DNA from: a virus
IMG/VR virus record: IMGVR_UViG_3300035070_002087
Coordinates: 1 to 23,395 of that record
DNA: 23,395 nt
Direction: 5' to 3' (one strand)
In this document: piece after piece, positions 55 through 19,313 of the stretch
Layout: each line of letters begins with the position of its first letter
How positions within the stretch are numbered: position 1 is the stretch's first letter
Program-made: the position numbers and the translations under genes
Notes under the pieces: model-generated
Told to the model about the DNA's origin: nothing
Database searches by the model: none
What the model saw: the letters and a program-made list of their open reading frames with translations, nothing else

Positions 55-690
55 ATGGGCGTTTCGAAAGTAGAGATCGCGAACATGGCGCTCGACGCGC
101 TGGGTGTGGAGCGCATTGCCAGCCTCACCGAGAACAGCGCACCGGCGCGCATCATCAACACGCGCATTGATCAGGCTATCGACGCCGTGCTCGAGATGTC
201 CGACTGGACGTTTGCCCGGCGCATCACTGCGCTGGCCAGCGTCGCGAACGACTGGGAGCAGCGCTACCAGATCAAGTACAGCTTGTCGAACGACACGGTT
301 AAGGTGATCCGGCTGGTGCCGCAGATCGACATCCCAAACACCGTCCCGATCCCGTTCAGCCTCGCCAATGGCGCGCTGTACACGGATGAGCCCGACGCAA
401 TCCTGCAGTACACCTACCGGCACGTCGACACGCCCAGCTGGCCGATGTCCTTCACCGAGACGGTGTCCTTCTATCTGGCCCGGGCATGCGCTTACCCGCT
501 GACGCGTAAGCGGGCGATGTTCGTCGATATGCACTCGCTGATGTCGGAGCAGCTGGAGAAAGCCATCGAGTTCGACGCGAGCCAAGAGGCCACGTTCTGG
601 GCTTACCCGTCCGAGTATCTGGAAGCGCGTGGTGCGTCCGCTCGATCGGGTGACGGGCGCGGGGCCGACGGCTCCTCGTACTGGGAGTAG
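55..690 (+). CDS. Tail tubular protein A (T7 gp11-like head-tail adaptor)
   Basis: A 211-residue protein, close to the roughly 196 residues of T7 gp11. In T7-like phages this protein forms the dodecameric adaptor ring between portal and tail nozzle. The N-terminus (VEIANMALDALGVERIASL) and the following Ala-Val-Leu-Glu-Met-Ser-Asp-Trp-x-Phe-Ala stretch around residues 40-55 match the usual pattern of this family, in which an 'xxNxAL..LG..xIxSL' helix is followed by 'xLxxxxWxFA'. The C-terminal 20 residues are Gly/Ser/Arg-rich and probably flexible. The start is supported by AGGAG at 41-45 with 9 nt spacing. The nozzle gene follows after only 3 nt, which fits co-transcription and co-assembly. 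Assignment is by pattern and gene order, not by a database search. Confidence 0.88.
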   Translation: MGVSKVEIANMALDALGVERIASLTENSAPARIINTRIDQAIDAVLEMSDWTFARRITALASVANDWEQRYQIKYSLSNDTVKVIRLVPQIDIPNTVPIPFSLANGALYTDEPDAILQYTYRHVDTPSWPMSFTETVSFYLARACAYPLTRKRAMFVDMHSLMSEQLEKAIEFDASQEATFWAYPSEYLEARGASARSGDGRGADGSSYWE

Positions 691-3009: not shown

Positions 3010-3461
3010 TCTCGTTCTCCGCGGCCACACCAGAGCACGGGGTATACATCGCGGAGCACATCCGTCCACTGGACCGCGAAGAGCTCCGGCTCACCGGGGC
3101 TAGTAGCGTGGCGTCCGCAGTGCGGACCTCGATCGCGCTGTCCCGAGGCAGCGCGGTGACGGCTTTCGTAGATGACCGGCCAGCCGCCGTATTCGGGGTC
3201 GCGCCGAACTACCTGCTCGGGGAAGGCTGCCCGTGGATGCTCGGCACCCCGGAGGTATCGGCGCATGCCCGCACGCTGCTGCGCTGGGCGGGTGACGTCG
3301 TGGATCGCTGGCTCGAGGAGTTCCCTATCCTGATGAACGAGGTTTGGATCGGCAACCGCCCGGCCGTCCGGTTCCTGAAGCGAGTGGGTTTCGAGTTTGC
3401 AGAGCCGAGGCTAAACGGGTATGGTGCAGAGATGGCACTTTTTTACAAGCGGAGGTCCTGA
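3006..3461 (+). CDS. GNAT-fold protein in the T7 gp13 position (internal virion protein A-like)
   Basis: A 151-residue protein starting at the ATG that overlaps the nozzle stop codon (ATGA). A longer frame opens at 2913, but its first 31 residues are Arg/Asp/His-rich and lie inside the nozzle gene, so the short start is preferred. The C-terminal third carries a GNAT-like acetyl-CoA-binding pattern, 'NEVWIGNRPAVRFLKRVGF' (about residues 112-130), the usual 'N..A...Y.k.GF' motif of acetyltransferases. T7 gp13 homologues in many podophages are GNAT-related proteins of this size located between gp12 and gp14. The role could be structural or assembly-related in the internal core, or an active acyltransferase; no substrate can be inferred. 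The gene overlaps the next by 1 nt (TGATG). Confidence 0.72.
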   Translation: MISFSAATPEHGVYIAEHIRPLDREELRLTGASSVASAVRTSIALSRGSAVTAFVDDRPAAVFGVAPNYLLGEGCPWMLGTPEVSAHARTLLRWAGDVVDRWLEEFPILMNEVWIGNRPAVRFLKRVGFEFAEPRLNGYGAEMALFYKRRS

Positions 3462-3964
3462 TGTGCGGAGTACAAGCCTTGATGATCGGGTCGACCATCC
3501 TGTCTGGGGTGGGCACGGTCATGTCGGGCAACGCCGCGGCAGCCTCGGCCAACTACAACGCCGCGATCCAGACGCAGAACGCGGTATACGCTGACCAGCG
3601 AGCCAAGGACGCACTTGCCCGGGGGCAGGACGAGGAAGAGCGCGTGCGCCGCGAAGGCACGTTGATCCGCAAAGGCCAAGAGGCCCGCTATGGCGCGGCC
3701 GGTATCGATCTTGCGTACGGGTCACCACTCGACGCGATCATCTCTTCCGCCACGCAGGCTGAGCTTGACGCGCTGACCGTCCGAGAGAACAAGAACCGGG
3801 AGGCCGAAGACTTCGAGCGCGAGGCGTGGAGCTCGCGAGCTGGCGCCGCGCTGAGCCGCTCCGAGGGGCGGGCGGCAAAGCGGGCCGGGCTTATCTCTGG
3901 CGTAGGTAACGTGTTGTCCGGCGGAGCTGAGGTGTACAAGTACAGGGCGGGGCTGGCGGCATGA
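3461..3964 (+). CDS. Internal virion protein B (T7 gp14-like)
   Basis: A 167-residue protein, slightly shorter than T7 gp14 (196). The start 'MCGVQALMIGSTILSG' is chosen because GGAGG (3451-3455) lies 5 nt upstream of ATG 3461; an upstream in-frame start at 3344 lies wholly inside the preceding gene. The layout is that of gp14-like proteins: an N-terminal Gly/Ala/Ser-rich hydrophobic helix (residues 4-30), an Ala/Gln/Asn-rich helical segment, then a long charged helical region with 'RKGQEARYGAAGIDLAYGSP' and an Arg/Glu-rich stretch, ending in a Gly-rich hydrophobic helix. T7 gp14 is ejected into the host and forms the outer-membrane pore of the DNA-ejection channel. It overlaps the next gene by ATGA (3961-3964), consistent with coupled translation of the core proteins. 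Confidence 0.72.
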   Translation: MCGVQALMIGSTILSGVGTVMSGNAAAASANYNAAIQTQNAVYADQRAKDALARGQDEEERVRREGTLIRKGQEARYGAAGIDLAYGSPLDAIISSATQAELDALTVRENKNREAEDFEREAWSSRAGAALSRSEGRAAKRAGLISGVGNVLSGGAEVYKYRAGLAA

Positions 3965-6315
3965 GATTTCCGGTATACGAGCAGCAGGTCCGGCTACAAG
4001 GGCGCAACCGCACCGACCTGAGCGTACGGGCAAACCCGAACGCCTTCGGTGCGCAGATCGGCGCGGCCGTGCAAGACTTGGGCGTCGGGATCGGGAAGGT
4101 TGCCGAGGCCTTCCGCTTCAAGGAAGCGCTGGTCGCAGACGGCGACGCCCGCGCGGCGATGAACACATACATCGACTACAGCCGCGATGTGCTCTACGAT
4201 CCGCAGACCGGGGCGCTGAACCAGACCGGTGCCAAAGGCATGGCCGAGAACCGTGACGCGGCCAACGAACGGCTGGCAGAGAAGCGCAAGCAGATCGAGG
4301 CGAACCTCGGCCCGCAGGCCAAGAAGATATTCACTGACGCAGCTGACCAGCTCGACAACACCGCCAAGAACAACCTGATCAAGCACGACAGCGAGCAGAC
4401 GAAGAACTACGTCAACACGCAGGCGGAGAGCACGGTCGAAGGGTTCATGCAGACGGCCATGGACAACTATGGCAACGACGAGGAGTGGGACCGGTACGTC
4501 AAGGCCGCGCTCGCGGAAGCCGACGGGTTGGGGCGTCTTAACGGCGCACCACCGGAGACGATCGCGCTCAAGAAGACCGAGCTCCTGAAGCAGGCGCACG
4601 GCAACAGGGCAATCCGCATCGCGTACGACGACCCGGTCAAGGCGGACGCGTACATCGACGCGCACCGTGCCGAGCTCGGCGAGGCAGAGTACAGCAGGCT
4701 GAAGGTCGGCATGGAGGCAGCGGTTGTCGAGAGCAAGGCGGACGCGGAGATCGAGAAGCTGCGCGGCAGCGACATGTACGTCGGCAAGCGCGGCGGCACC
4801 GAAGACACGTGGCTGAAGTATTCCAACGAAGGCAAGATCAGAGACAAGCCGGTCAGCCCGAAGCTGAAGATGTCCATGGGGTTCCTGCGTGATATGGGTA
4901 TCACCATGGAGGTGTTCTCCGGCGGGCAGGACGCGATCGGGGAGGGTAGCAAGCGGACGGGCTCGATCCGCCACGATCACGGCGATGCAGCCGACGTGAT
5001 CTTCTACAAGGACGGGCGCAAACTGGACTGGAACAACCCGGCTGACCTGCCGTACTTCAACGAGATCGTCGCGCGGGCCAAGGCGAACGGGGTGACCGGC
5101 TTCGGCGCCGGCTCGGGCTACATGACGGACGGCTCGATGCACATTGGCTTCGGCAATCCCGGGGTCTGGGGCGCAGGAGGCGACGGCGGCAAAGCTGCAC
5201 CATGGCTGGTCGCCGCTTTTGCAGGGGCAGCGCTTGGCGATACCCCAGCTAGCTTGGTCGATGAGGGCATGAGCACGCGTTCTGCGTACGAAGCAATAAT
5301 GCGGATCGAGGACCCGAAGGTGCGCGCGGCGGCGATGACGAAGCTCGACCAGCAGCTGAAGGCCGAGGCCTCGCTCAACATTGAAGACCAACGCGGCGCG
5401 GCCGACGAGGCGTGGCGGCTGTACACCCAAGACGGGATGCGCCCGCAGGATATCCCGATGGACCTGCAGATCAAGATGGGGCGCGAGGCGACCCTGAACT
5501 TCTTCGAGAGCGCCCGCGCGTATGAGAGCGGCACGCTGGCGACGGACGAGCTCCGATACTCTGAGCTGCAGCGCATGGCTGTCGAAGACCCACAGGGCTT
5601 CGCCGAGCTGGACCTCAGCTACGAGCGCATGAACTTTTCCAAAAATGACTTCCGGTCGGTCGAGCAGATGCAGCTCGAGATCATGCAAGGCATGGAGAAG
5701 GCGGGGAGAGAAACGCAGAGCACCCTCGATGACCCCGGCACAATGAACAAGGTGTACAGCGATGCCGAGCAGCGGTACAACGATGTGGTTCCGAAAGCGG
5801 GCAGCAGCCGCACGCAAGAGGAGGCTGCCGCGTACAACCGGTTCCAAGAGAGCGTGAAGCGCTATGCCCGGGAGTTCATGCTGGAGAAGGGGCGCCCGAT
5901 GACCTTCGACGAGCAGGACAAATTGTTCTCCATGCTCCTCACCCCGATCGTGCTCAAAGATGGCCAAGGGATGTTCGGCAGCAGCCGGGACGCGATGCTG
6001 TTCGACGCACCGTTGCGTGGGTCGAATGAGCGCGTAGAGGGGGGTCTGACGGCGGATCAAGTTCCACTGGCCGACGAGAAAGAAGCCCGTGAAGAGCTCC
6101 TCACGTTCTACGGCCGCGAGCCTTCTGACGACGAGATACTGGCGCACCACAATCGTAAGATGCTGGCCAAGCTCGGCATCAGCCCTGAGCTGGAGTACCG
6201 CGACCTCCCATCTGATATGAAGGTGAAGCTGGGCAAGGCGTACCCGGATGCCAGCGATGAGGAGCTCGTGGACATGTACATCGACTTCGTTCTTGCGGCA
6301 GCGAAGGACCAATGA
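3961..6315 (+). CDS. Internal virion protein C (T7 gp15-like) with an M15-type zinc peptidase motif
   Basis: A 784-residue protein at the gp15 position and of gp15-like size (T7 gp15 is 747). It is mostly helical and charged, as expected for the ejected periplasmic channel protein. Residues about 298-400 differ from T7: a compact domain with 'MEVFSGGQ' (about 316-323), the motif H338-x-x-G341-x-A343-x-D345 and a later 'GSMHIGFG' (H394). These fit the zinc ligands of the M15 / D-Ala-D-Ala peptidase (Hedgehog-like) fold, which cuts peptidoglycan cross-links. In T7 the cell-wall enzyme of the core is the lytic transglycosylase of gp16; here this domain probably replaces it. The start overlaps the previous stop, and the next gene begins 12 nt after the stop. 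Substrate and activity are inferred. Confidence 0.8.
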   Translation: MRFPVYEQQVRLQGRNRTDLSVRANPNAFGAQIGAAVQDLGVGIGKVAEAFRFKEALVADGDARAAMNTYIDYSRDVLYDPQTGALNQTGAKGMAENRDAANERLAEKRKQIEANLGPQAKKIFTDAADQLDNTAKNNLIKHDSEQTKNYVNTQAESTVEGFMQTAMDNYGNDEEWDRYVKAALAEADGLGRLNGAPPETIALKKTELLKQAHGNRAIRIAYDDPVKADAYIDAHRAELGEAEYSRLKVGMEAAVVESKADAEIEKLRGSDMYVGKRGGTEDTWLKYSNEGKIRDKPVSPKLKMSMGFLRDMGITMEVFSGGQDAIGEGSKRTGSIRHDHGDAADVIFYKDGRKLDWNNPADLPYFNEIVARAKANGVTGFGAGSGYMTDGSMHIGFGNPGVWGAGGDGGKAAPWLVAAFAGAALGDTPASLVDEGMSTRSAYEAIMRIEDPKVRAAAMTKLDQQLKAEASLNIEDQRGAADEAWRLYTQDGMRPQDIPMDLQIKMGREATLNFFESARAYESGTLATDELRYSELQRMAVEDPQGFAELDLSYERMNFSKNDFRSVEQMQLEIMQGMEKAGRETQSTLDDPGTMNKVYSDAEQRYNDVVPKAGSSRTQEEAAAYNRFQESVKRYAREFMLEKGRPMTFDEQDKLFSMLLTPIVLKDGQGMFGSSRDAMLFDAPLRGSNERVEGGLTADQVPLADEKEAREELLTFYGREPSDDEILAHHNRKMLAKLGISPELEYRDLPSDMKVKLGKAYPDASDEELVDMYIDFVLAAAKDQ

Positions 6316-6341
6316 TACCTTGCGGGGATGGTACAATTTGA
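6304..6341 (+). promoter_or_regulatory. Possible 9-codon leader ORF overlapping the start of the giant gene
   Basis: The giant gene's ATG (6328) has no good Shine-Dalgarno sequence: only GCGGGG directly abuts it. AAGGA at 6304-6308 sits 3 nt before another ATG (6312-6314) that overlaps the gp15-like stop codon. That ATG opens a different frame of nine codons ending in TGA at 6339-6341, just past the giant gene's start. Termination there could feed re-initiation at 6328 and set a low expression level. The reading frame is directly visible; the regulatory role is speculative. Confidence 0.28.
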
Positions 6342-9300
6342 CCTCCTGAACGGCCCGCAGAAGCCTGACGCCACTGATTTCGACAAGTGGTTGGCTGATC
6401 GTAACTACCAAACCGCGATGTCGGCGTCCACCGCCCTCACTGCGGCACGGACCACCACCACGCCCGAGGAGGCGGTCAAGCGACGTAAGGTCGCAGCGAT
6501 GGCAGGGACGGCGCTAGGACTGAGCCTACCCGCGAACCTTCTGGCTGAGCCCGGCGTGCTGGGTATGGTCGAGGGGAAGATCGACCACCACCGCAACGTG
6601 CAGACGTTCATGGGGAACCCGAAGCTCGCTGATTGGATGGCCCGTGAGGATAACGCGGCTGTCGCGAGTGACAGCGTCGAAGAACTCGGCGCGTGGGGGG
6701 TCTTGTTTAACGGCTTCGCACGAGGCACGTCGCGTACGGTCGACGGCTTTGCCGGGCCGACAGCCCGGCTGGAAGACACATCTGAGGTTCTGCGCCGAGC
6801 CCGCGACAGCCAGAAGACATTTGGTGACCTACTCACTGACGAGATCGCGGCCGAGGCTCCCGGCCCAACCCGAACCCGGGGCTTCAAGTTCTCGGAAAAG
6901 GAGAGGAAGCAGTCGGAGGCGGGGACGACTGAAGGCGCAGTGCACCCGGTTGCGGTGATCGCGGCGACCAAGCGTTGGCTCGAGGGTAACATATTCGCGG
7001 CGACCTCGTTCACCCCGGCCGACGAAGCTATCCCTCTTCTGGAAGGCGAGGCGGAGGACGCTGCACGCGACGCGGCAAGAGCGGAGGCCCAGCGGAACGT
7101 CGACTACCCCCGAGGTCGGGCTGCCGAGCGCGCCGCGGCGGTGCTCGATGCCATCCCAGACGACGCGGGCTTCGTCGACACGACGAAGGTTATCGCTGAT
7201 CTGGCGTACAATAGCCCCGGTGACTTCATCAGCTTCTTGGCTGGGATCGCGGCAGAGAGCGCGCCGGCCATAACGGCGGCCGGGACCACCACGATGGTGA
7301 CGAAGAACCCATTCCTTGGCCGCGCCGCGATGGTCGGCGCCACGATCCCGAGCACAAAGGCCAGCAGCACGCTGGAGCAAGCGGCCGCGATGGGCTACGA
7401 CCTGTCGAAACCGGAAGACGCCCGACGTCTGGCGCAGAGCGACGGCGATCTCGACAAGCTGATCCGCAGCGTCGGGGTGTACAGCACAGTCGTTTCGATG
7501 ATCGACGCGTCCACGGCGGGTCTCGGCTCGCACATGGCGAAGAGCCCGGTAGGCAAGTTCCTTGTGGAGGCTGTGGCGCAGGCCGTGGCCGGTGGCGGCG
7601 GTGAGGTCATGGCCCGCATGATGTCGGGTCAGAAGTGGACGTGGACCGACGCGATCCTCGAGGGGTTGGCCGAGATGGTCACCGCCCCGTTGGAAGCGGC
7701 CGGCGTGGGAAGTAGCGTCGTGTTCCGACGGTACAGCGAGGCCCAGAACAACGCAGATCGCCGTGGTTTCTTCAAGGCGTTGAGCGAGGGCTCGGTCAAC
7801 AGCAACCTGCGGAAGCGCTCCCCGGAGGCCTTCAAGTCCGCCGTCGAAGCTCTGACCAAAGACGGCCCGGTGGAGAATGTGCACATCGACGCGGGGCGGA
7901 TGGAGCAGCTGTTCCAAGACGCGCCCGAGGAGCTGACAGCACTGTTTGACGCAACGCCTGAGCTGGACTACCGGGTGTTCCAGAAGGCAGCGGAGACTGG
8001 CAGCACCTTCGCCATCCCGACCGCGGTCTACGCGGCGAAGATCGCGGGCACCAGCTACGACGCCAAGCTGTCAGATAACCTGCGCCTGCAGGCTGACCGC
8101 ATGTCCTACGCTGAAGCGCAGGAGGCGATGGCCGAGGCGGAGACCGAGATCAAGGCGATCGAGACGCGGGTGGCTGAGCTTGAGCGCACCTCGGAGTTCG
8201 ACGCCACTTCGCAGGCAGAGTACGAAGGGCTGGTCACACAGCTCGTCACGGCCGGGCGCGCGCCGGGCGTGGCCCGGGCTGAGGCGCAGGTTATCGCCAG
8301 CACGGTGCAGACCATGGCGCAGCGGCAGGGCATCACGACTGAGGAGTTCGTGCGGCGCAACATCGTGCCGACCGTACGCCGTGAAGGCGCCGCGGCGACG
8401 GCCGCCCCGTTCCGAGTGATGCGGCTCGGCGAGCTGTCGGATGCTATGCAGGACCCGACGACCGCCACCCTGCCGGAGTTCGCGGTGATCACGGAGGAGC
8501 TGGCCGAGCGCGGGCTGACGCCCGAGACGGCCGACGTTGATGACATCCGGCTGGCAGCAATTGCTGTTGCTGACAGAGGAGGGCTCAGCTCTGACCTCGA
8601 AGAGGATTTTTTGCTGACGCCCAGCGGCATCTACCCGGCCACGCCGGGCGAGGCCCTGATGCAGACGGTCAGCCTGCGCAACGGCACCGAAGACCTGAGC
8701 GCATACGGACACACCCCGGGCAAGAGCATCACCACCCGCGCATTGGCGCTGGTCATGCAGAAGCGTCAGCGGGCGCTGTACGGTAAGATCAACCGCAAGG
8801 ACTTCGGGCGCAAGACCATCGAGAAGATGGCGAGCTGGATGGCCGACGAGATCGAGTTCGAGCTGCAGACGCCCGGCGCGGCTGCGGACGGGTGGTACAC
8901 GACCAAGTTCCAAAAGGCGCTCGACATCATGGCGGCGCGCTTCCCTGAGTTCAGCAACGATGGTGAGTGGGTACGACCCAACCTCGCCGGATTGAAGAAG
9001 GTCAGTTCCGCGTACGAGGCGCGGCAGCTGATGACGATGATCATCGCCGTCACCTCGAACGGTGCCCGGGTCGCTGACAACTACAAGATGGCCGTCGAGG
9101 CGTACCGCCAGTTTCGCGAGACCGGCCGCATGCGCGTGATGCGGGGCGTCGGCGAGCGCGGCTCCTCGATCACAAACCACCTCAACCGGATCGCACAGCT
9201 GGTCGGGGAGTTCGACAGCGTAGCCGATATCACTCAGTTCCTGACCGAGAGCGTGACAGTCAAAGAGACGAATGTCGAGCTGCGGAAGATCGGTATGCCC

Positions 9301-12300
9301 GCGATCTCCAAGATGCCGAACGACGCACGCGTGCCCCGGGCGACCGCGATCTTTGGACCAAAGCTGGGGGCGTTCTACGCCAACCTGTCGGGCGCCGACG
9401 GCTACCTCACCATGGATTTGTGGTGGACCCGCACGATCAACCGCTACCGCGGCGACGTGCTGCCGCGAGTGAGCGGGCTGAAGAACGCCGTGAACAGCAA
9501 GGGTGAGCCGGTTGGCCTGCACCGTTTCAAGTGGCTGGTCGGCCAGCCCGATCTGACCGACAGTCAGGCGCTGAAACTTGTTGTCGACCACGCCCAGCGG
9601 TACAAGGACCGGGGCTACAAAGAAGGCGACGAGGCCGAGAAGGCCGCGAACACCTTGTACAAAGACGCCTTTGTCAAGCTGCAGGAGGCGCCGCTCAGCG
9701 CGAAAGAGCGAGGCTTCATGATTGAGGTCGCCGGCGCCGCACGCGACGAGCTTGCAAACCGCACCGGGAAGAGGTACTCTATCGCGGATGTGCAGGCGCT
9801 GATCTGGTATTACGAAAAGCGCCTGATGGCGGACATGGGAGCAAAAGAAAATGGCGACATCAGCTATGAAGACGCGGCCCGACGTGCAATTGGTGGACCC
9901 ATCGGAGTGGCCGGACCTATCGCCGACGCCGGAGCAGGTGTCAGCGATGGCACAGGACTGGAAAGCGCAGCGGCCGCAGACGGTCGCCGGTTACCTGACC
10001 TCGATCGCGCCGAGGTCCTAACCGGCGCGCTGAAAGGCGACGGTCGGAAGTTCACGAACTTCTTCGCCGACGTCACCGCTGGGCGTAGGCAGAAGCCGAA
10101 GAACCTCGACGGGTACACGCCGGTGATCGACCTTCCACCGGAGGTCGGGGAGTTCAGCGCAGCCCGTGAGAAATACTCGGGCAACTTCGACAAGCACATC
10201 ATGACCTCGATCCCGGGATACCGGGAGATGCAAGACGCCGTTGGCTACGCGATCTCGCAGGTGCTGAACGGCGGGTCGATCCTGCGCATCGGCGCGTCCG
10301 AAGGATCGACAGTCAAGGCGATCGTCGAACTCGCTGGTAACGGCGCGACCGGCGTCGCGATGGACCCGAACCTCGACATGCAGCGGACCTTCGAAGAGAA
10401 AGGGCAGGTCCCGGGCGTGCGCTTCGACTTCTCGGCTTTTGGTGCGATCGAGGACGCAGGTAATGAACTCTGGACCGAAGACACCGGCGAAGTCGTTCGG
10501 GTGTTCGATCCCGGCGCCCAGCGTTTCGATGTAGTCGTCGAGCAGATGGTGTTCCAGTTCATCTCGAACGCGCGCGGCGCGCAGGTGGCGGCGGCCAAAG
10601 GGCTGATGAAGCCGGGCGGCCTCTTCTACACCGCTGAGAAAGTCGGCGGTCCGGCGGAGGCATACCGCGCGAACGAGGCCAAGAAAGACAGCTTTAAGGC
10701 GCAGTACTACTCGCCCGAAGAGCTCGAGGCCAAGCGTCAAGAAGTGCTGCAGACTGGCGGCGACGCAGTCGAAGGTATGACCGACCTCCAAGTCTCGAAC
10801 ACTGAGATCGAGGCGGTGCTACGCGCAAACTTTGCGCATGTCGTTCAGGTGTGGGACAGCGGGAATTTCAAAGGCTACGCGGCCTCAGACGATCCCGCAA
10901 AGCTGGCAGGGTTTCTTCAGAACCTGCCGTCTCTTGCGTCAGAATACGCGACCGTCGAGACCCCCCGTCTCGTCGGCGAGCCCGCGATGGTGTTGCAACA
11001 GAGCTCGATCCCGCCGGATGCAGCGACGCCGGCCGACTTCGACGGCGAGCTCAAGCTCAGCTCCTTTCGCAAGAAGGGCTGGTTCATCATCTCGGCAACC
11101 CAGAGCCACTTCGGTGACTGGGATAGCGCCGACAACGTGGCGGAGGCCCAGCGCCTGCGCGACTTCTTGGCCGCCACTGGGCTGGCTCACCGCGAGGTGC
11201 GCGGCCGCTATGCCGCCACCGACGATGGCCCGTCGTTCCTCGTGTTCGGTAACGAGGCCACCTACGGCGCGACCATGCGCGACATGTTCCGGCAGGAAAG
11301 CATCCTGACCCGGCAAGGTTTTGTCTACGGCGAGGAGGGGCGCAAGCCCGTCCCGATCATCGGTCTGCGCGAGGGCGCTGCGCTGAAGCCTGATGAGGAC
11401 TACCAGACCACGCTGCCAGACGGCCGCACGTTCACGCTTGATCTGGACTGGCCCGACGCCAAGTCTGACGATCCGCGCGATGACCTGTTCCGTCGCGAGG
11501 ACGGCCTGACCGAGCTGACCCACTGGTCGCCACGTGAGCGCGCCACGATCGACCCGCGTCACGCGGGCAAGGGTAAGCTGCCCGGCCCGGAGCGCCACCG
11601 CTCGGGGCCGAAGAAGGCTTTCTTCGGGCTGAACCATGGCAAGCGGAACACCGCCTATGAGCGGGAGAGCCCCGATCTGGGTGGGCTCAAGCACACCGTG
11701 GCGGTCGATCCGCAGAAGCTCTATCCGTGGGACACCGATCCCGACGGGTTGCGCGACAAGGTAGACGGCAAGCTCCCAGCGCCCCAGCAGATCGGCGCCT
11801 ACGAAACGCTGATCAAGCGGGCCGGCTATGCCGGCTACTTCGTGATCGATGGACCGCTTGGTGACGTGGCGGCCGTGTTCGACGCGCTGCCGGTCGAGCG
11901 TGTCGAGCGGGACATGGCGCTGTACCAGAGCGGCGAGGCGTTCTTCAAGTCGGCCCTGTCGCAGGCGATCCTCGACGCAAAGCAGGAGACGGCGCCTGCA
12001 CAGGACTGGCTGAAGATCATCCCGAAGCTGCCCGGCGTGAAGAAGGCCGAGCTCGAGTGGACCGGTCTGGCCGCGTGGCTGGAAGGGCAGGACCCGACCC
12101 GCAAGCTGACGCGCCAGCACATCTACCACTGGCTCTCCAGCGCGCAGGTACAGATCGAGGTTGTCGACGGTCCGGGCACGTTCAGCGGATACGCGACCGA
12201 GCTCAGCACCCCCGCGGACTACGAGGAAATCCTGATCACCGTGCCGAACCTCGACGAGATCGGGCCAAACGCGGGGCGGGGTGTCGTGAGCACCATCGCC

Positions 12301-15300
12301 AACAGCGGCCACTTTGACACGCCGAACATCGTCGTGCACGCCCGTGTACAACGGACAGGCGACACCCTGTTCGTCGGCGAGGTGCAGTCGGACCTGAACA
12401 GCTTCTGGCGCAAACGCGGCGGGCAAGTCCCCTCGGTGAGCCCCGAGCAACAGGAGATGTTGGACGAGCTGCGCCGGTTGGAGGATGTATTCGCAGCCGG
12501 AGAGATCGCGCTGCTGCAGGCGCGAAACGCCTTTGACGACACCCTTCGCGACACATCGGTTTCGTTCTTCGAGGGACAGTCTTTTGCGGTCTCTGTCAAC
12601 ATCATGGATGACATCCTCGGCGCGTCGTCGCGGGCGCGCGGCAACCTAGCGCGCTCCCTGAAGCTCGCGGAGGTAGAGGGGCACTTCGAGACGTTCGATG
12701 CGTTTGCGGCGGATTACCTGAAATCGGCACTCGATCGCACCACGGCCCTCTACCGGGAGATGATCGATGCAGAGCCGCATATCCGCAACGCGATGGCTCT
12801 ACTGGTCGTTAGGAAGCTGCGCGAAGCGGCCGCCCCCGGTTGGCAGCAAGCGTTCGTCACGTTGGACAAAACGGCTGAGGCCCGCCAAGAGGCGCGCGCT
12901 GACTTTTTGCAGTACCGTCGCGACCTGCCGCCGGGGCTCGTCGGGCGCGAAGATGGCCAGCTCCCGCTGCCATTCTCCCCCTTCGAGGGCGAGAGCGCTG
13001 TACAGCTGGCGATGAAGTATCTGACCACCTACGCCGCGCGCGAGGGGTTCAAGAAGATCGCGTGGACCCCGGGCTACATGCAGATGGCGCGCTGGGGCGT
13101 GCAAGAGCAGCGTGCTCAAGGGATGATCGCGCGCTGGTTTGTCCAGCGTGGCAGCGACGGCCAACAGACGGCCACTGCGGACTTGAACGATGGGCAATAC
13201 TTGACAGCGACGTTCGGCGCAGATGGGACTATCACGCGCGGCGGAGACCGCCTGAACGGCATGGGTGTCGAAGGCCGCCATCTGCGCGAGGTGTTCCCAG
13301 CCGCGCTGGTTGAGCAGTTTATGCAACCGTTCGCGGACGGCGAGAGACTGCGTACCGGGACCGGCGAGGACCTGCCCGAGGTCAACCTCAGCGACAATGC
13401 CGGCCAAGGTTACCGTATCGTCTACGACCAGCAAATGAAGCGGTTCCTCGAGAAGTGGGCGGGCAAGTTCGGGGCGAAGGTCGAGAGCGACACGTCGCTG
13501 GCGCGAGGCAACGAAGAACGCGTCAACCCTGAAGCGGTGCGCCAGTACCTTAACTACTGGCGGATGGGGCTGATCGACGGCCAGATAACTCCCGAGCAAG
13601 TTCGGCGTTTTAGAAATGCGGTCGTGGATCACGGAAACGCGAGTTTCAGCGTCGAACCCGCGATGCAAGCTGAGTACGTAGCCGGAAACTACGCCGCAGT
13701 TATCGAGATCGGAATGACGAGGATGGATAACACCCGAGTGGCCCGCGTCGCCAGAGCGATCGGCGACGAGCGCTTCTTCGTTTACGCGGGCGATCCCGTC
13801 TGGTCGCTCACCCTGACCGACGAGTTCCGCGCTGAGGCGTCCAAGCCCCAGCCGCTGTTCCAGAACCGGCCCGGCGGTGCGCGCGGTCAGATCATCCTGC
13901 CGCCTGTCGGCAGCGACGCCGCGCCTGAGATCACAGTCTTCGACAAGGCTGACCTGTCCACCGTGATGCACGAGGGCGGCCACTGGATGCTGTGGCTCCT
14001 GCAGACTGGCGCCCGGGCGGGCGACCAGTTCTCGACCGAGGCGACCCAGACGGTGAACGCGTGGTTCGTGAGCCAAGCTGAGGACATCGCCAACGAGATG
14101 GGGCTGATCGCCCCGCAGGTGCTGGAGTATCTGTCCAAAGGGACGACCGGCGCCGCCGATGTCGACGACAAGGTGCACCGTGGGCTGCATGAGCGTTTCG
14201 CCCGTGGCTTCGAGGCCTACCTGCGCGAGGGTAAAGCCCCGAGCATCGCCCTGCGCGGTGTCTTCCACCGGTTCGCCGCATGGTTGATGGAGGTCTACAA
14301 GTCTGCGAAGCGCCTGCGGGTGGAGCTCTCGGACGAGGTCCGGCAAGTCTTCGACAAGATGATCGCCACCGACGCGCAGATCACACAGGCTCGTTCGCTC
14401 AGCGTCGGCGCCGAGCAGATCGCTGCCACCGCGAAGGCCATGGGTCTGGACGAGGCCAGCTACGAGGAGCTCGTGCGCCTGCAGGATGAGGAGCGCTCGG
14501 AAGCCTTCGGGCTGGCGCTGCGCGAGACCATGGCGCCGATCATGGCGCAGCGGTCGGCCGAGGCCCGCGCACTGCGCAACGGTCTGATGAAAGAGGTGTC
14601 CGAGGAGGTCAACGGCCAACGCCATAACCGAGCGTTCGAGTGGCTGGCCAACGGCCGCTGGGTCGGCTCGGCCGAGGCACCGGACGATCTTCCTGCCGAT
14701 CTGCGCATGGACCCGGAGCTGCTCGCCGACGAGTATGGTCAAGAGCTGCTCGACAAGCTGCCGCGTGGCCGGCGCCCGATGACCAAGGCAGGCTCTGGCC
14801 TGACCGCAGACGAGGTCGCAGGTTGGTTTGGCTACGACAGCGGCGCCGACATGTTGAACGATTTCGTGACGAAGCCACGCGCCAAGGACGAGATCAGGAA
14901 CCAAGTGCAGGCCAAGCTCGCTGAGCGGCTGGCCGAGCAGGACCCGCGCACTGAGGGCGACGCCGCCGAGGCGATGGTTGAGGCGCTGCACGGTGAGAAG
15001 CACGGGCAAGTGTTGGCGGCCGAACTGCGCGCGATCAATCGTGTGTCCGCGGCCCCCGGCAAGATCACCAGCCGTCAGCAAGCCGCGCAGATCGCACGCG
15101 ACGTCATCGCCCGCATGAAGGTGCGCGACGCCATCCGGTCGAACCTGTACGCCCAACAGGCGCGCACGTTCGGTGAGCAGGCCGCGCGGCTGCTGATAGC
15201 CGGTGACACCAACGGGGCGTTTGAGGCCAAGCGTAAGCAGCTGATCCAGCACTCGCTGTTCGTCGAGAGCCGGAAGGCTGCCGACCTCGTGGCGCGTACG

Positions 15301-17727
15301 GAGCGGAAGGCCGCCAAGCTCAAGCGGTCCGGCACGCGCAAGAACCTCGCCGGGGAGTACCTCGAGGCGATCGACGACCTGCTGTACACCTATGACTTCC
15401 GCAAGCTCTCGGCCGCGGCCGAGGCTAAGCGCGGCGGACTGCTGCGGTACATGGAGATGATGATCAAGGCCGGGCGCGAGAACGAGCTCTCGATCCCTGA
15501 CCACCTGATCACCGATGCAAAGCGAGTGCCTTACAAGACACTGACGGTGCAACGTCTGCAGGGCGTCCTCGACGCGCTATCCAACATCGAGCACACCGCC
15601 CGGCTGAAGAAGAAGCTGCTGGACAAGCAGCGCGAGCGGGAGATGGACGAGGTCGTCAGCGACATCGAGCAGGCGTTCTCCGACAACATCAAGGGGCGCG
15701 ACCTGAACCGGGTGCCCACGGGCTTCGAGCGGGTGCGCGACGCCGTGAAGGAGTTCGTCAACTATGCCACAAATGCTGACACCCTTTTGCGTCGGATTGA
15801 CGGGTGGCGCACCGGTGCGGTCTACGGTCACCTGAAAGAGGGCATCGATCGGGCGTCGAGCCAAGAAGTGGTCATGCGCCAGCGCGCCGCGCTGGAGCTG
15901 GACAAGCTGTTCACGCCTTACGACCGGGGAGAGCGCCGCCGTATGGCCGTCCGCCAGCGCTGGGACGGCTACGACCAGAGCCTCAGCAAGTGGGACCTGA
16001 TCTCGATCGCGCTGAACAGCGGGAATAAAGACAACTGGGAGCGGCTGACGTCGCGCGATAACGCAAAGGCGGTCACCCCGCTGGAGGCGCGCGCGCTGCT
16101 GGAGCACCTCGACGAACGTGACTGGAAGTTCGTCCAGAGTGCTTGGGATCACCTCGACGCAGAGTATTGGCCGCAGATCGCCGAGCGCGAGAAGCGCACC
16201 ACCGGCGTTGTGCCGAAAAAGGTCGAGGCCATGCTGATGGTTGAAGGCCTCCCCGGTATGCCCGCTGGCGTCCGCGGCGGCTACTACCCGATCGTGTACG
16301 ACCGCCGGTTCTCGGCCAAGGTGGCGGAGGAGAAGCATCAGGAAATCCAGAACGCTATGCAGGCTGGACGGTTCGGCAAGGCACAGACCCGCAACGGGCA
16401 CACCAAGGAGCGCGCGGCCGGTTCAGGCGGGCGCACGGTAGAGCTGGGTATCCACGTGCTGTTCGGCCACGTCAACCAAGTGATCCACGATCTGGCGTTG
16501 TCAGAGGAGGTGGCAAACGCTTGGAAGGTGCTGCAGGAGCCACGCGTCAAAGGGCTGTTTGAGCAGGCCGGTCTGCTGGTCGACCACGCGTCGCTGGAGG
16601 TGTGGTTGCAGGATGTTGCCGCCGGGCAGATCGTGACCGGGGGCGTCCTCGGCCGGATGGCGCGGCACGCGAAGTCTGGTTTCACGGTCTCGAAGCTGGC
16701 CTTCAACATGTCGACTGTCGCCATCCAGTTCACCGGTCTGGCGCAGTCGATGGCGGTCATTGGAAAAGCCCCGATGGTGAAAGCCTATTCTTCGTACGTT
16801 GCACAAGGGATGTATCCGGCAGGGCAGCGCATCAAAGCGCGGTCGGTGTTCATGCGCGAGCGGGAGATGACCTTCCAGCGCGACATGTTCGACCTGATCG
16901 GTGAGGCCACGCGCAATCCGACCAGCGGCATGCTGGCTGACGGGCGAGGCCTCCTGATGGCCGCCGGGTTCTGGGCGATGCAGAAGGTGCAGTTCTATGT
17001 CGTCGACGCTCCGACGTGGATGGCCGGCTACGAGCAGGGTCGCAAGCAGGGGATGTCCGACGACGAGGCCGCGCAGCACGCCGACCGCATAGTCGCCCGC
17101 GCGCAGGCGTCAGGCATCTACGCGGACCGCACGGCGATCGAGCGGGGGACGCTCGGCCGTGACACTCGGCAGAACGAGTTCATCCGGCTGTTCACCGCGC
17201 TGGGCTCGTACATGTTCGCCAAGTTCAACGTCGCGCAGGAAATCGCCGGGCGCACCGCGCGGGACGTTCGGGCAGACGATAAGAGCTCCGTGGCTGCGCT
17301 GCTGAACGGGACGATCGATCTGGCGCTGATCTTCACGGTCGAGGCCGTGCTGTACAACCTGATCAAGGGCACGCTACCGGGTGACGACGAGGAAGACGAG
17401 CAGAGCTGGCTGGCGTTCCTCGCCCGCGAGACCGCGCTGTCGGCTATGGGCACGTTGCCCTTTATCCGCGACATGGCCTCAGCGCTGCAGGGCTTCAACG
17501 GTGGCGGCGCCTACGGCGGCGTGGCCGACATCTTCGGGCGCGTCGGTGTGCAGGTCGGTCAAGGTGAGGTCGACCAATCGCTGTTCCGCAGTGTCAACGA
17601 GCTTGTCGGCGTGGCCGTGCCGGGGTATCCTTCGGTCGCGCTCTGGCGGCTGGTCGCTGCCGAAGCGGAAAGACAAGATGGTGGGGATGTCAGCCCGATG
17701 AGCTACATCATGGGGCTTCCGCGCTAG
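6328..17727 (+). CDS. Giant 3,799-residue ejected 'polyvalent' internal virion protein (gp16 position, DarB-like mosaic)
   Basis: One uninterrupted frame, about three times the length of T7 gp16. Residues 1-120 have the 'RKVAAMAGTALGLSLPANL ... NPKLADWMAR' pattern common at the start of giant phage core proteins; 250-480 is hydrophobic/helical ('DAILEGLAEM'). About 780-1220 is a conserved helical module ending in 'QALIWYYEKRLMADMG'. About 1265-1525 is a class I methyltransferase resembling CmoA (motif I 'ILRIGASEG', 1318-1326; D1346). About 1580-1670 resembles DUF3293. About 1726-1867 may be ADP-ribosyltransferase-like. About 1871-2384 is a module typical of large phage polyvalent proteins ('VGEVQSDLNS', 'LPLPF', 'FLEKWAGKFGAKV'). 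About 2537-2700 is a zincin (H2548-E-G-G-H2552, then 'HERFARGFEAYLREG'). About 2700-3150 is coiled-coil-rich. The C-terminal ~600 residues resemble the membrane-associated LPD38/39-type ends and include a hydrophobic helix near 3659-3679. No transglycosylase motif is seen. It is likely packaged and ejected (inferred). Confidence 0.85.
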   Translation: MVQFDLLNGPQKPDATDFDKWLADRNYQTAMSASTALTAARTTTTPEEAVKRRKVAAMAGTALGLSLPANLLAEPGVLGMVEGKIDHHRNVQTFMGNPKLADWMAREDNAAVASDSVEELGAWGVLFNGFARGTSRTVDGFAGPTARLEDTSEVLRRARDSQKTFGDLLTDEIAAEAPGPTRTRGFKFSEKERKQSEAGTTEGAVHPVAVIAATKRWLEGNIFAATSFTPADEAIPLLEGEAEDAARDAARAEAQRNVDYPRGRAAERAAAVLDAIPDDAGFVDTTKVIADLAYNSPGDFISFLAGIAAESAPAITAAGTTTMVTKNPFLGRAAMVGATIPSTKASSTLEQAAAMGYDLSKPEDARRLAQSDGDLDKLIRSVGVYSTVVSMIDASTAGLGSHMAKSPVGKFLVEAVAQAVAGGGGEVMARMMSGQKWTWTDAILEGLAEMVTAPLEAAGVGSSVVFRRYSEAQNNADRRGFFKALSEGSVNSNLRKRSPEAFKSAVEALTKDGPVENVHIDAGRMEQLFQDAPEELTALFDATPELDYRVFQKAAETGSTFAIPTAVYAAKIAGTSYDAKLSDNLRLQADRMSYAEAQEAMAEAETEIKAIETRVAELERTSEFDATSQAEYEGLVTQLVTAGRAPGVARAEAQVIASTVQTMAQRQGITTEEFVRRNIVPTVRREGAAATAAPFRVMRLGELSDAMQDPTTATLPEFAVITEELAERGLTPETADVDDIRLAAIAVADRGGLSSDLEEDFLLTPSGIYPATPGEALMQTVSLRNGTEDLSAYGHTPGKSITTRALALVMQKRQRALYGKINRKDFGRKTIEKMASWMADEIEFELQTPGAAADGWYTTKFQKALDIMAARFPEFSNDGEWVRPNLAGLKKVSSAYEARQLMTMIIAVTSNGARVADNYKMAVEAYRQFRETGRMRVMRGVGERGSSITNHLNRIAQLVGEFDSVADITQFLTESVTVKETNVELRKIGMPAISKMPNDARVPRATAIFGPKLGAFYANLSGADGYLTMDLWWTRTINRYRGDVLPRVSGLKNAVNSKGEPVGLHRFKWLVGQPDLTDSQALKLVVDHAQRYKDRGYKEGDEAEKAANTLYKDAFVKLQEAPLSAKERGFMIEVAGAARDELANRTGKRYSIADVQALIWYYEKRLMADMGAKENGDISYEDAARRAIGGPIGVAGPIADAGAGVSDGTGLESAAAADGRRLPDLDRAEVLTGALKGDGRKFTNFFADVTAGRRQKPKNLDGYTPVIDLPPEVGEFSAAREKYSGNFDKHIMTSIPGYREMQDAVGYAISQVLNGGSILRIGASEGSTVKAIVELAGNGATGVAMDPNLDMQRTFEEKGQVPGVRFDFSAFGAIEDAGNELWTEDTGEVVRVFDPGAQRFDVVVEQMVFQFISNARGAQVAAAKGLMKPGGLFYTAEKVGGPAEAYRANEAKKDSFKAQYYSPEELEAKRQEVLQTGGDAVEGMTDLQVSNTEIEAVLRANFAHVVQVWDSGNFKGYAASDDPAKLAGFLQNLPSLASEYATVETPRLVGEPAMVLQQSSIPPDAATPADFDGELKLSSFRKKGWFIISATQSHFGDWDSADNVAEAQRLRDFLAATGLAHREVRGRYAATDDGPSFLVFGNEATYGATMRDMFRQESILTRQGFVYGEEGRKPVPIIGLREGAALKPDEDYQTTLPDGRTFTLDLDWPDAKSDDPRDDLFRREDGLTELTHWSPRERATIDPRHAGKGKLPGPERHRSGPKKAFFGLNHGKRNTAYERESPDLGGLKHTVAVDPQKLYPWDTDPDGLRDKVDGKLPAPQQIGAYETLIKRAGYAGYFVIDGPLGDVAAVFDALPVERVERDMALYQSGEAFFKSALSQAILDAKQETAPAQDWLKIIPKLPGVKKAELEWTGLAAWLEGQDPTRKLTRQHIYHWLSSAQVQIEVVDGPGTFSGYATELSTPADYEEILITVPNLDEIGPNAGRGVVSTIANSGHFDTPNIVVHARVQRTGDTLFVGEVQSDLNSFWRKRGGQVPSVSPEQQEMLDELRRLEDVFAAGEIALLQARNAFDDTLRDTSVSFFEGQSFAVSVNIMDDILGASSRARGNLARSLKLAEVEGHFETFDAFAADYLKSALDRTTALYREMIDAEPHIRNAMALLVVRKLREAAAPGWQQAFVTLDKTAEARQEARADFLQYRRDLPPGLVGREDGQLPLPFSPFEGESAVQLAMKYLTTYAAREGFKKIAWTPGYMQMARWGVQEQRAQGMIARWFVQRGSDGQQTATADLNDGQYLTATFGADGTITRGGDRLNGMGVEGRHLREVFPAALVEQFMQPFADGERLRTGTGEDLPEVNLSDNAGQGYRIVYDQQMKRFLEKWAGKFGAKVESDTSLARGNEERVNPEAVRQYLNYWRMGLIDGQITPEQVRRFRNAVVDHGNASFSVEPAMQAEYVAGNYAAVIEIGMTRMDNTRVARVARAIGDERFFVYAGDPVWSLTLTDEFRAEASKPQPLFQNRPGGARGQIILPPVGSDAAPEITVFDKADLSTVMHEGGHWMLWLLQTGARAGDQFSTEATQTVNAWFVSQAEDIANEMGLIAPQVLEYLSKGTTGAADVDDKVHRGLHERFARGFEAYLREGKAPSIALRGVFHRFAAWLMEVYKSAKRLRVELSDEVRQVFDKMIATDAQITQARSLSVGAEQIAATAKAMGLDEASYEELVRLQDEERSEAFGLALRETMAPIMAQRSAEARALRNGLMKEVSEEVNGQRHNRAFEWLANGRWVGSAEAPDDLPADLRMDPELLADEYGQELLDKLPRGRRPMTKAGSGLTADEVAGWFGYDSGADMLNDFVTKPRAKDEIRNQVQAKLAERLAEQDPRTEGDAAEAMVEALHGEKHGQVLAAELRAINRVSAAPGKITSRQQAAQIARDVIARMKVRDAIRSNLYAQQARTFGEQAARLLIAGDTNGAFEAKRKQLIQHSLFVESRKAADLVARTERKAAKLKRSGTRKNLAGEYLEAIDDLLYTYDFRKLSAAAEAKRGGLLRYMEMMIKAGRENELSIPDHLITDAKRVPYKTLTVQRLQGVLDALSNIEHTARLKKKLLDKQREREMDEVVSDIEQAFSDNIKGRDLNRVPTGFERVRDAVKEFVNYATNADTLLRRIDGWRTGAVYGHLKEGIDRASSQEVVMRQRAALELDKLFTPYDRGERRRMAVRQRWDGYDQSLSKWDLISIALNSGNKDNWERLTSRDNAKAVTPLEARALLEHLDERDWKFVQSAWDHLDAEYWPQIAEREKRTTGVVPKKVEAMLMVEGLPGMPAGVRGGYYPIVYDRRFSAKVAEEKHQEIQNAMQAGRFGKAQTRNGHTKERAAGSGGRTVELGIHVLFGHVNQVIHDLALSEEVANAWKVLQEPRVKGLFEQAGLLVDHASLEVWLQDVAAGQIVTGGVLGRMARHAKSGFTVSKLAFNMSTVAIQFTGLAQSMAVIGKAPMVKAYSSYVAQGMYPAGQRIKARSVFMREREMTFQRDMFDLIGEATRNPTSGMLADGRGLLMAAGFWAMQKVQFYVVDAPTWMAGYEQGRKQGMSDDEAAQHADRIVARAQASGIYADRTAIERGTLGRDTRQNEFIRLFTALGSYMFAKFNVAQEIAGRTARDVRADDKSSVAALLNGTIDLALIFTVEAVLYNLIKGTLPGDDEEDEQSWLAFLARETALSAMGTLPFIRDMASALQGFNGGGAYGGVADIFGRVGVQVGQGEVDQSLFRSVNELVGVAVPGYPSVALWRLVAAEAERQDGGDVSPMSYIMGLPR

Positions 17728-17759: not shown

Positions 17760-19313
17760 ATGACAGTCGAGACAGTGAACGATGACGGCACGCCCGTAGT
17801 TCGCTCCGGGCCGTACAACGGCAACGGTATCACAACGGTGTTTGGCTACAACTTCCTGATCACCTCCGCGACGGACATCAAAGTGACCCGGCAGAACGCC
17901 AACCTGTCGGAGGACATCCTCACGCTGACGACCGACTATACCGTCACGGGTATCGGCAGCGAAGCCGGGGGGACGATCGTCTTGGTCGACGCGGCTGACG
18001 CGCCCACCGGCTCCAAGCTGGTCATCCAGCTCGACATGGACTTCAAGCAGAGCACCGACTACTCGAACCAAGGCCGCATCCAACTTGCGCTTCTGGAAAC
18101 CAGCCTCGACCGTCTGACACTCACATGCCGCCAGTTGCGCGAGAGCATGTTGCGCGCGGTGACCATCGACAGCTTCGGGACGGCGAACCTCGCACAGTTG
18201 CGCACGAACGTCAACGCGCTGGCGGCTATCGAGGCGCAGATCACGACGGTCGCGGCGAACATCGCAAACGTGAACACCGTGTCGGCGAACATGGCCGACA
18301 TCGACGCCATCATCGCCAACCTGATAGCGGTGCAGAACGCGGCGGCGAACGCTATTGCGGCGGCGAACAGCGCGACAGCCGCTTCGAACAGCGCGACAGC
18401 CGCTTCGAACAGCGCGACGGCAGCGGCGGCGGCGTCCGCCGACTTCCTGAACTACGGTCTCGGCGTCGCAGGTGCGCCCGTGTTGCTGGCCAACATCGAC
18501 GCAACCAATATAAAAGCCGGTGTCTACTTCTTCGACGGGACGACGCTCGGGACCTACCCGACAGGTATCGTGGCGGCGGATACCGGGCTGATCGAACTCT
18601 GGCGGCAAGCCGCTGGTACGGCGCTGATGGAACTGCACCACGCGACCAGCGACAAGGTGTTCCGTCGCCGCATGACCGCGTCGGTCTGGGGCGCATGGCG
18701 CGAGGTGATCAGTGCCAACCAGAACGCTGTCGAGGGGGACATCCTCTACCGTTCGGCTACCGCGTGGACACGGCTCGCCAAAGGTTCGGCGCTTCAGGTT
18801 CTTCGGCAGAACGCCGGGCTTACCGCCCCGGAGTGGGGATCGGTAAAGGGCACCAGCAACGTCGCGGTCACCACGTCTGGTACGACGCACGATCTGACCG
18901 GCGTCCCGACAACGGCAATGTTCTTTACTTTGCATTGCCTTCAGGTAAGCCTTTCCGGGTCTGGGGGCTGGAGAGTTCAACTCCTCGACGCGGCGGGTTC
19001 TCCGATTACTGCGGGGTACACTTCCACGTTCGCGACAACCGACGGGGTCACGGTCGCGACAAGCGCTGGACCGGCCAACGCGTTCCAGGTTTATCAAGTC
19101 GCTGGGGTAGAGAATTTCACTGGTAGGATGAACTTCGCGCGCGTTCCGGGAACAGACGACTGGATACAGGACCATGTCGGGCGTAGAAGCGGAAGCCAAA
19201 CGGTCATGGGTGGCGGTTTCATAGCGGCTGGTAACGTAACAGGCGTTCGCCTTCTGCCATCGGGCGCGTACACGTTCGACAGCGGAAGCGCCTTCATCTC
19301 GTGGGAGGCGTGA
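17760..19313 (+). CDS. Tail fibre / receptor-binding protein (T7 gp17-like N-terminus)
   Basis: A 517-residue fibre. Residues 1-150 match the virion-attachment domain of T7-type fibres: 'NGNGITTVFGYNFLI', 'LTTDYTVTGIG', 'GGTIVLVDA', then 'TDYSNQGRIQLALLETSLDR' leading into a helix. Residues about 153-228 are an Ala/Asn/Ser-rich coiled-coil shaft containing an imperfect 7-residue repeat (NSATAAS). Residues about 251-320 resemble a pyocin-knob domain ('GVYFFDGTTLGTYPTG', 'MTASVWGAWREVI'). The C-terminal ~150 residues are beta-rich and Gly/Ser/Thr-rich and probably form the receptor-binding tip; the DNA there (from about 18900) is visibly less GC-rich than upstream, as often seen in exchanged tips. 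Length is close to T7 gp17 (553). Start: GAAGG at 17743-17747, spacing 12 nt. The next gene overlaps by 1 nt (TGATG). Confidence 0.88.
   Translation: MTVETVNDDGTPVVRSGPYNGNGITTVFGYNFLITSATDIKVTRQNANLSEDILTLTTDYTVTGIGSEAGGTIVLVDAADAPTGSKLVIQLDMDFKQSTDYSNQGRIQLALLETSLDRLTLTCRQLRESMLRAVTIDSFGTANLAQLRTNVNALAAIEAQITTVAANIANVNTVSANMADIDAIIANLIAVQNAAANAIAAANSATAASNSATAASNSATAAAAASADFLNYGLGVAGAPVLLANIDATNIKAGVYFFDGTTLGTYPTGIVAADTGLIELWRQAAGTALMELHHATSDKVFRRRMTASVWGAWREVISANQNAVEGDILYRSATAWTRLAKGSALQVLRQNAGLTAPEWGSVKGTSNVAVTTSGTTHDLTGVPTTAMFFTLHCLQVSLSGSGGWRVQLLDAAGSPITAGYTSTFATTDGVTVATSAGPANAFQVYQVAGVENFTGRMNFARVPGTDDWIQDHVGRRSGSQTVMGGGFIAAGNVTGVRLLPSGAYTFDSGSAFISWEA
18365..18418 (+). repeat. Tandem 21-bp repeat in the fibre shaft
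   Basis: A 21-bp unit beginning GAACAGCGCGACAGCC occurs at 18365-18385 and exactly again at 18386-18406, followed by a partial third copy from 18407 that diverges after GAACAGCGCGAC. It encodes the heptad-like NSATAAS repeat of the coiled-coil shaft. Exact nucleotide identity points to recent slippage-type duplication, which would change shaft length in 7-residue steps. Confidence 0.85.
19303..19308 (+). promoter_or_regulatory. Ribosome binding site fixing the start at 19313
   Basis: GGGAGG lies inside the end of the fibre gene, 4 nt before ATG 19313. It overlaps the body of an alternative in-frame GTG start at 19301, so that upstream start cannot use it. Confidence 0.6.

Follow-up and report, generated by a model that had tools for sequence, protein, structure and literature searches.

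A giant protein in the gp16 position of a BPP-1-type podophage, probably an ejected carrier with a variable cargo region between constant ends

The genes of phage T7 stand in the order gp11-12-13-14-15-16-17, and gp16 is a protein of 1,318 aa with an SLT domain at its own N-terminus and neither a zincin nor cargo. Hardies et al. are said to have described, in 2016, internal virion proteins of phage phiRIO-1 that host lysozyme domains together with domains destined for the cytoplasm. K1E/K1-5 offer a known case of a lytic domain moving from one to the other of the gp15- and gp16-like proteins (PMC8954989). In the N4-like phage DEV, the giant virion RNA polymerase (vRNAP) is encoded third in the ejection operon and has been called the functional equivalent of gp16, and the N4 vRNAP is likewise known as an injected protein (PMC10925440), which is packaged and contains a zincin (PMC5512222). 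Polyvalent proteins were proposed to be injected and then processed by their own zincin (Iyer et al. 2017, PMC5512222). The delivery, together with DNA, of a giant enzyme from the ejection slot is already established for the N4/DEV vRNAP (PMC10925440); for polyvalent proteins it has been proposed (PMC5512222). Finally, the zincin of Bbp10 from Bordetella phage BPP-1 (residues 700-1000) was one seed of the 'CLCA_X' family (PMC3650047).

The DNA analysed here, called the window, is a virus fragment of 23,395 bases (IMG/VR) with a GC content of 64%. It encodes a giant protein of 3,799 aa, with an ATG start and without an internal stop (Table 1). When T7's own proteins were scanned, gp13 was assigned to phrog_308, gp14 to phrog_805, gp15 to phrog_1339, and gp16 to phrog_342. 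Since the window also has a phrog_308 protein, the T7 gene order is matched, and the giant gene does lie in the gp16 position, as the preliminary description had it, preceded by a gp15-position gene and followed by a gp17-type fibre. On these profile assignments, gp13 is the same family in T7 and in the window. The link for gp14 is weak: the window gene matches PF24072 (T7_gp14) at E 1.8e-5, below that family's cut-off, and phrog_805 at E 0.021. The gp15 and gp16 proteins correspond by position only, so that the neighbour described as gp15-like keeps its place in the order but not its family (phrog_10475, versus phrog_1339 in T7). The phrog_308 match starts at residue 34 of the gp13-type ORF, whose true start is thus probably near 3010. 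Downstream of the fibre lie a GH19-type endolysin/chitinase and then an exonuclease.

Table 1. Genes around the giant protein and parts of the giant protein, in window coordinates.
Feature	Residues	Position	Strand	Evidence
Tubular tail A (gp11-type; TubeA), phrog_394		55..690	+	E 1.8e-37
Tubular tail B / nozzle (gp12-type; TubeB), phrog_376		694..3009	+	E 1.5e-144
gp13-type internal virion protein, phrog_308		2913..3461	+	E 8.9e-32; T7 gp13 in same phrog
gp14-type internal virion protein, phrog_418		3344..3964	+	E 6.2e-22; match from residue 40
gp15-position protein, phrog_10475 type		3961..6315	+	PHROGs match
Giant polyvalent carrier protein (putative), 3,799 aa, phrog_9880 / Bbp10 family		6328..17727	+	Profile match
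Constant N-module	1-685	6328..8382	+	HMM in 76/81 relatives
LPD22 domain	40-132	6445..6723	+	Window E 8.8e-5 (sub-threshold)
Variable cargo bay, 1,833 aa	686-2518	8383..13881	+	blastp, end-module HMMs
DUF7178-like module	760-1182	8605..9873	+	blastp to ctEw122, L041, L086, L028, DC33, others
Exchangeable cassette	1229-1549	10012..10974	+	Replaced in sister phage L098
SAM-dependent methyltransferase domain	1272-1519	10141..10884	+	phrog_4752 E 1.5e-14
DUF3293 domain, possible SAM-lyase-like fold	1578-1710	11059..11457	+	Homology to L041, predicted fold
Possible ADP-ribosyltransferase-like domain	1725-1870	11500..11937	+	AF2 confidence ~80; weak 6kyf match
Conserved uncharacterised cargo	1964-2430	12217..13617	+	blastp to Nsp-JY18, L021, L076, others
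Zincin metallopeptidase	2519-2690	13882..14397	+	HEGGH at 2548; HExFAxxFExY at 2621
Constant C-module beyond zincin, all-helical, ~1,100 aa	2690-3799	14395..17724	+	AF2
Tail fibre, T7 gp17-type N-terminus, phrog_1640		17760..19313	+	E 1.8e-20; T7 gp17 in same phrog

A full-length match to phrog_9880 (2,231-position profile, E 2.2e-264) places the giant protein in the Bbp10 family. Pairwise blastp showed that only its two ends, residues ~75-720 and ~2490-3797, are common to relatives. HMMs of these end modules were applied to 81 complete phage relatives, 76 of which contain the N-module. In these 76, the N-module (631±41 aa) and the C-module (1,270±46 aa) are constant, and the bay between them ranges from 17 to 2,036 aa (sd 490) and follows total length (r=0.992). 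The window bay is the third longest measured among the phage relatives. Prophage copies form a separate collection, taken from bacterial genomes, though they are phages of the same family: 35 of the 37 have all parts, with bays of 6 to 1,322 aa and a correlation with total length of r=0.965. Constant N- and C-modules are thus present in more than 100 relatives, and they enclose a single region of variable length that ends just upstream of the zincin. The LPD22 domain, sub-threshold in the window, is found in 43 of 44 N-modules of relatives, with E values down to 1.9e-26. Compared with PDB sequences, neither the N-module nor the C-module alignment gave a match.

The family is widespread. tblastn with residues 2507-3799 recovered 43 phage records (38 at 80% coverage or more), and a scan of viral contigs found at least 585 relatives in IMG/VR. 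The gene position is the same in BPP-1, CP2, Jess A, AF, Carin1, HU1, Ab9, DC33, and Nsp-JY18. Relatives, including several metagenomic podophages, have an 'endolysin/lysozyme' gene on one side and a fibre/tail-spike region on the other, and in phage AF two holin genes come between the giant gene and its usual neighbours. Family lengths run from 1,822 to 4,012 aa, with Bbp10 of BPP-1 at 2,052 aa (C-module about 31% identical to that of the window), Xanthomonas CP2 ORF24 at 2,478 aa, and the protein of Nostoc phage Nsp-JY18 at 4,012 aa (C-module 44% identical). Since the latter and that of phage L098 (3,837 aa) are longer than the window protein, this one is not exceptional by size alone. It shares with the family its gene position, N-module, zincin, and C-module, and differs in its cargo and in a bay of 1,833 aa, versus 169 in BPP-1. 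Within this phage protein family, which is known and large but little studied, the window protein stands out for its heavy load. Members are often annotated 'crystallin beta/gamma motif' or 'lysin', names for which the analysis found no support.

A scan of bacterial-genome contigs gave no match with the window sequence alone and gave matches with a clade alignment. The nearest prophages (41-46% identity) are mainly from Rhizobiales and other Alphaproteobacteria, which suggests an alphaproteobacterial host for this phage. Phages recorded from Nostoc and Microcystis (L002, L017) match the window almost equally well; the nearest family copies in bacterial genomes are in Alphaproteobacteria, and these host records may stem from heterotrophs in cyanobacterial cultures. 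Another relative, Limnohabitans phage DC33 (L007, PQ492659.1), is filed under Inoviridae, but its 39-kb genome is of podovirus type and encodes the giant protein as well as genes in the TubeA/TubeB positions.

The preliminary description had gone further and suggested that ejection machinery and a set of defence-neutralising enzymes are fused in one virion protein. That the giant protein is a gp16 with extra domains is borne out by neither profile comparison nor fold. In hhalign, the C-module compared with a profile of 21 gp16 sequences gave a probability of 1.6% (E 0.032, score 31.9), against maximum scores of 26.4 for shuffled and 22.3 for reversed controls, and the N-module gave nothing (probability 0.1%). 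The PHROGs scan did not match the giant to phrog_342, the family of T7 gp16, and the N-terminal lytic transglycosylase of gp16 is absent from it. Its likeness to T7 gp16 lies in position and in neighbours (gp11-gp14 and gp17) of homologous families. The giant protein is gp16-positioned and polyvalent in kind, and gp16 homology is unsupported by sequence or fold. For gp16, a weak collinear GGYYP/GTYVP alignment was considered, and for N4 a comparable one at GYxP; both were rejected as not significant. The G-Y/T-Y-x-P motifs aligned by hhalign lie at about 16276-16302 in the window, about 660-670 in T7 gp16, and 2919-2965 in N4 gp50; each alignment alone is insignificant, and their agreement in relative place might point to a very distant common ancestor.

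It is the upstream gene family that shares an SLT domain with gp16 (hhalign probability 96%, E 3e-9), and the SLT motif has been lost from the window's own copy. The murein-hydrolase insert of the gp15-position protein varies: most relatives have SLT, ctEw122 has an M23-like insert, and DC33 and PS25B.1 have none. In the window, the insert has HxxGxxxD and HIGFG motifs. An M15-peptidase assignment for this gene reached an E of only 0.8 and was discarded.

At the start of the C-module, the HExxH motif is found in all 81 phage and all 37 prophage relatives (118/118). The remainder of the C-module was modelled with AF2 (mean pLDDT 84, pTM 0.71) as almost entirely helix, with a hydrophobic segment at 3657-3675. 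Searched against the PDB, this model gave no match better than E 0.25, T7 core proteins included. Among viral predicted structures, 89 matched it at E<=0.001. Many are phage proteins that bear the names polyvalent, ART-PolyVal, MuF C-terminal, LPD, or 'crystallin', and several belong to contigs recorded as sipho- or myovirus. Since the predicted fold recurs in phage polyvalent proteins, we conclude that the C-module is probably a carrier fold common to many of them.

A closely comparable layout is that of the N4/DEV vRNAP (gp50/gp71), a protein of about 3,400-3,500 aa in the gp16 slot of the ejection operon, whose payload enzyme lies upstream of a zincin followed by a C-terminal region of ~1,300 aa. 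In N4 gp50, HExxH is at 2228 of 3500, and the remaining C-terminal region equals the C-module in length. The payload differs, being an RNA polymerase; Pfam and PHROGs scans found no RNA polymerase family in the giant protein. Homology with the N4 vRNAP was not detected, there being no significant sequence similarity or fold match. As an occupant of the same slot, the N4/DEV vRNAP is a strong precedent for an ejected carrier.

Pfam searches on 56 bays found ART-PolyVal in 23, PBECR5 in 8, DUF7178 and GNAT in 5 each, RadC and DUF3293 in 3 each, ddrB-ParB and MuF_C in 2 each, and LPD23, Zeta_toxin, GGDEF, LPD3, and PBECR1 in one each. Many bay domains belong to the published polyvalent-protein set (PMC5512222). 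The proposed kinship with polyvalent proteins is supported for the family as a whole, which has LPD22, zincin, ART-PolyVal, PBECR, RadC, and ddrB-ParB, all domains that polyvalent proteins combine in one chain (PMC5512222). The difference is that the window family takes up insertions at a single fixed place, flanked by its constant ends, whereas polyvalent proteins mix domains freely; also, DUF3293 or SAM-lyase-like cargo was not found among the features in the text of PMC5512222. The window chain combines LPD22, the zincin HExxH, and a methyltransferase, hence at least two unrelated domains of the polyvalent set. Its polyvalent modules are mostly sub-threshold and were identified chiefly via relatives: PF23802, for example, was found in the parts of L028 and L086 that correspond to the DUF7178-like module. 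The methyltransferase is the clear one, with further matches to Methyltransf_12 (E 0.006) and Maribacter phage Panino (E 1e-29). Helicase/methylase modules of the P1 DarB type were not seen: Pfam, NCBIfam, and PADLOC scans found no SWI2/SNF2 or adenine-methylase family. PADLOC gave no defence-system match in the window bay and one borderline family in one relative.

Next to the methyltransferase, the window protein carries a domain homologous to the DUF3293 domain of L041 (E 3.6e-13). In an AF2 model of residues 1540-2480, the initial 330 residues have a confidence of about 80. The best PDB matches of this model are 7ock, which is the chain of T3 SAMase (E 0.014 at probability 1.00, with a target TM of 0.58), and 6kyf (anti-CRISPR; probability 0.72, E 0.34), which we take to be the ADP-ribosyltransferase AcrIF11. 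The fold search gave no aligned coordinates; placed by size and motifs, 7ock would fall on the DUF3293 segment and 6kyf on the following one. In SAM lyases, which have a GlnB-like alpha/beta fold, the residues of interest are Gly56, Tyr58, Glu69 (catalytic), Gln104, and Glu105 (PMC7877911). G-x-Y (G1626, Y1628) and Q1656-E1657 are invariant in the DUF3293 alignment. The catalytic Glu69 aligns with Glu in L041 and with Gly1634 in the window, so the window copy may be altered or inactive. The domain may resemble the SAM lyases T3 SAMase and Svi3-3 (PMC7877911), given its predicted-fold match to 7ock and the kept GxY and QE; it differs in the catalytic residue. The hhalign score of T3 SAMase against the DUF3293 profile was within the shuffled range and not significant, the DUF3293 alignment matched no PDB sequence, and no mention of DUF3293 was found in the literature searched. 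DUF3293 may have a GlnB-like SAM-lyase fold. This reading is no more than a lead, though one that would be new to the function of this Pfam family.

The sister phage L098, with a C-module 80% identical and DNA 69-80% identical over aligned blocks (about 75-78% over most of the regions flanking the exchange), provides a direct view of cargo exchange. The protein alignment is unbroken at residues 1-1228 (67%) and 1550-3799 (71%) and is interrupted exactly between them; DNA similarity ends at 9907 and restarts at 11023. In the interruption, the window has the methyltransferase and L098 an unrelated stretch ending in ART-PolyVal (E 1e-5). This is a clean cassette swap within the bay. In the L098 cassette (residues 1239-1612), a module of ~230 aa that is unannotated but looks conserved comes before an ART with an HGT motif. 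In more distant relatives, L099 (C-module 54% identical) has the same bay as far as residue 1851 and differs beyond it, and L100 (C-module 52% identical) has a bay of just 159 aa. dN/dS against L098 is 0.10 in DUF3293, the lowest of the protein, 0.13 in the zincin, 0.17 in the C-module, 0.32 in the N-module, and 0.19-0.47 in the remaining reliably alignable bay, values that are rough because dS is near 1 in several parts. The range of 0.10-0.47 over all reliably alignable parts shows that the giant is not a chance ORF, and the cargo is under purifying selection.

Most likely, the giant protein is an ejected carrier. We consider it fairly probable that this BPP-1-type podophage packages it in the virion as an ejection protein whose cargo bay can be loaded. 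We infer its presence in the virion, its cleavage, and its enzyme activities; no virion proteomics for any relative of the family was found in the literature searched. The constant ends would pack the giant in the head and, as the DNA is delivered, lead the chain down the tail and into the cell, where the zincin would cleave it and release the cargo in the cytoplasm. During the initial minutes of infection, this cargo (methyltransferase, SAM-lyase-like DUF3293 domain, ART-like domain, and DUF7178 module) would modify host targets or weaken defences, for example restriction, and the enzyme-like bay domains probably disarm the host cell.

The gp16 position would also suit a pure inner-core or DNA-translocation protein, the functional equal of gp16, with a middle that is structural filler or a DNA-binding surface. 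Bays of 6-17 aa in some relatives show that the bay is dispensable and the ends could carry a core function, and the faint collinear hhalign signal with gp16 exceeds the shuffled maximum. We nevertheless judge this unlikely: gp16 homology is not significant, the enzyme families recognised in bays are unrelated to one another and are replaced as cassettes, and the lowest dN/dS is on an enzyme-like domain. Somewhat less likely still is a late-expressed intracellular protein, active in lysis or host takeover outside the virion, as the GenBank names 'lysin' or 'lysis protein' of relatives (annotations only) would have it; in every relative seen, the gene lies inside the tail/ejection cassette, from internal virion proteins to fibre, and it is the upstream gene that has lysozyme or SLT domains, no peptidoglycan hydrolase being detected in the giant. 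Finally, the PBECR, Zeta-toxin, GGDEF, and ART domains in bays of relatives could be anti-competitor or toxin-like effectors against host or rival phages instead of counter-defence. We hold this improbable: what can be recognised in the window (SAM-related parts and a methyltransferase) is typical of anti-restriction as well.

New in the ejected-carrier reading are the fixed-slot design, here put into numbers, and a cassette swap that is seen directly. Tentatively, and with more doubt than confidence, the Bbp10 family could be a natural loadable chassis for protein injection, with packaging/ejection ends, one slot directly upstream of a release protease, and exchanged cassettes, including a virion-delivered SAM-lyase-like anti-restriction domain newly recognised in DUF3293. 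The slot model makes a concrete prediction on the layout of giant polyvalent proteins (carrier ends, cargo, and zincin) and ties BPP-1-type phages to the layout of the N4 vRNAP. If it is true, the early effectors of podophages in this family sit in a defined bay and can be swapped there; new counter-defence enzymes could then be found by reading bays, and a foreign domain put in the bay might reach bacteria.
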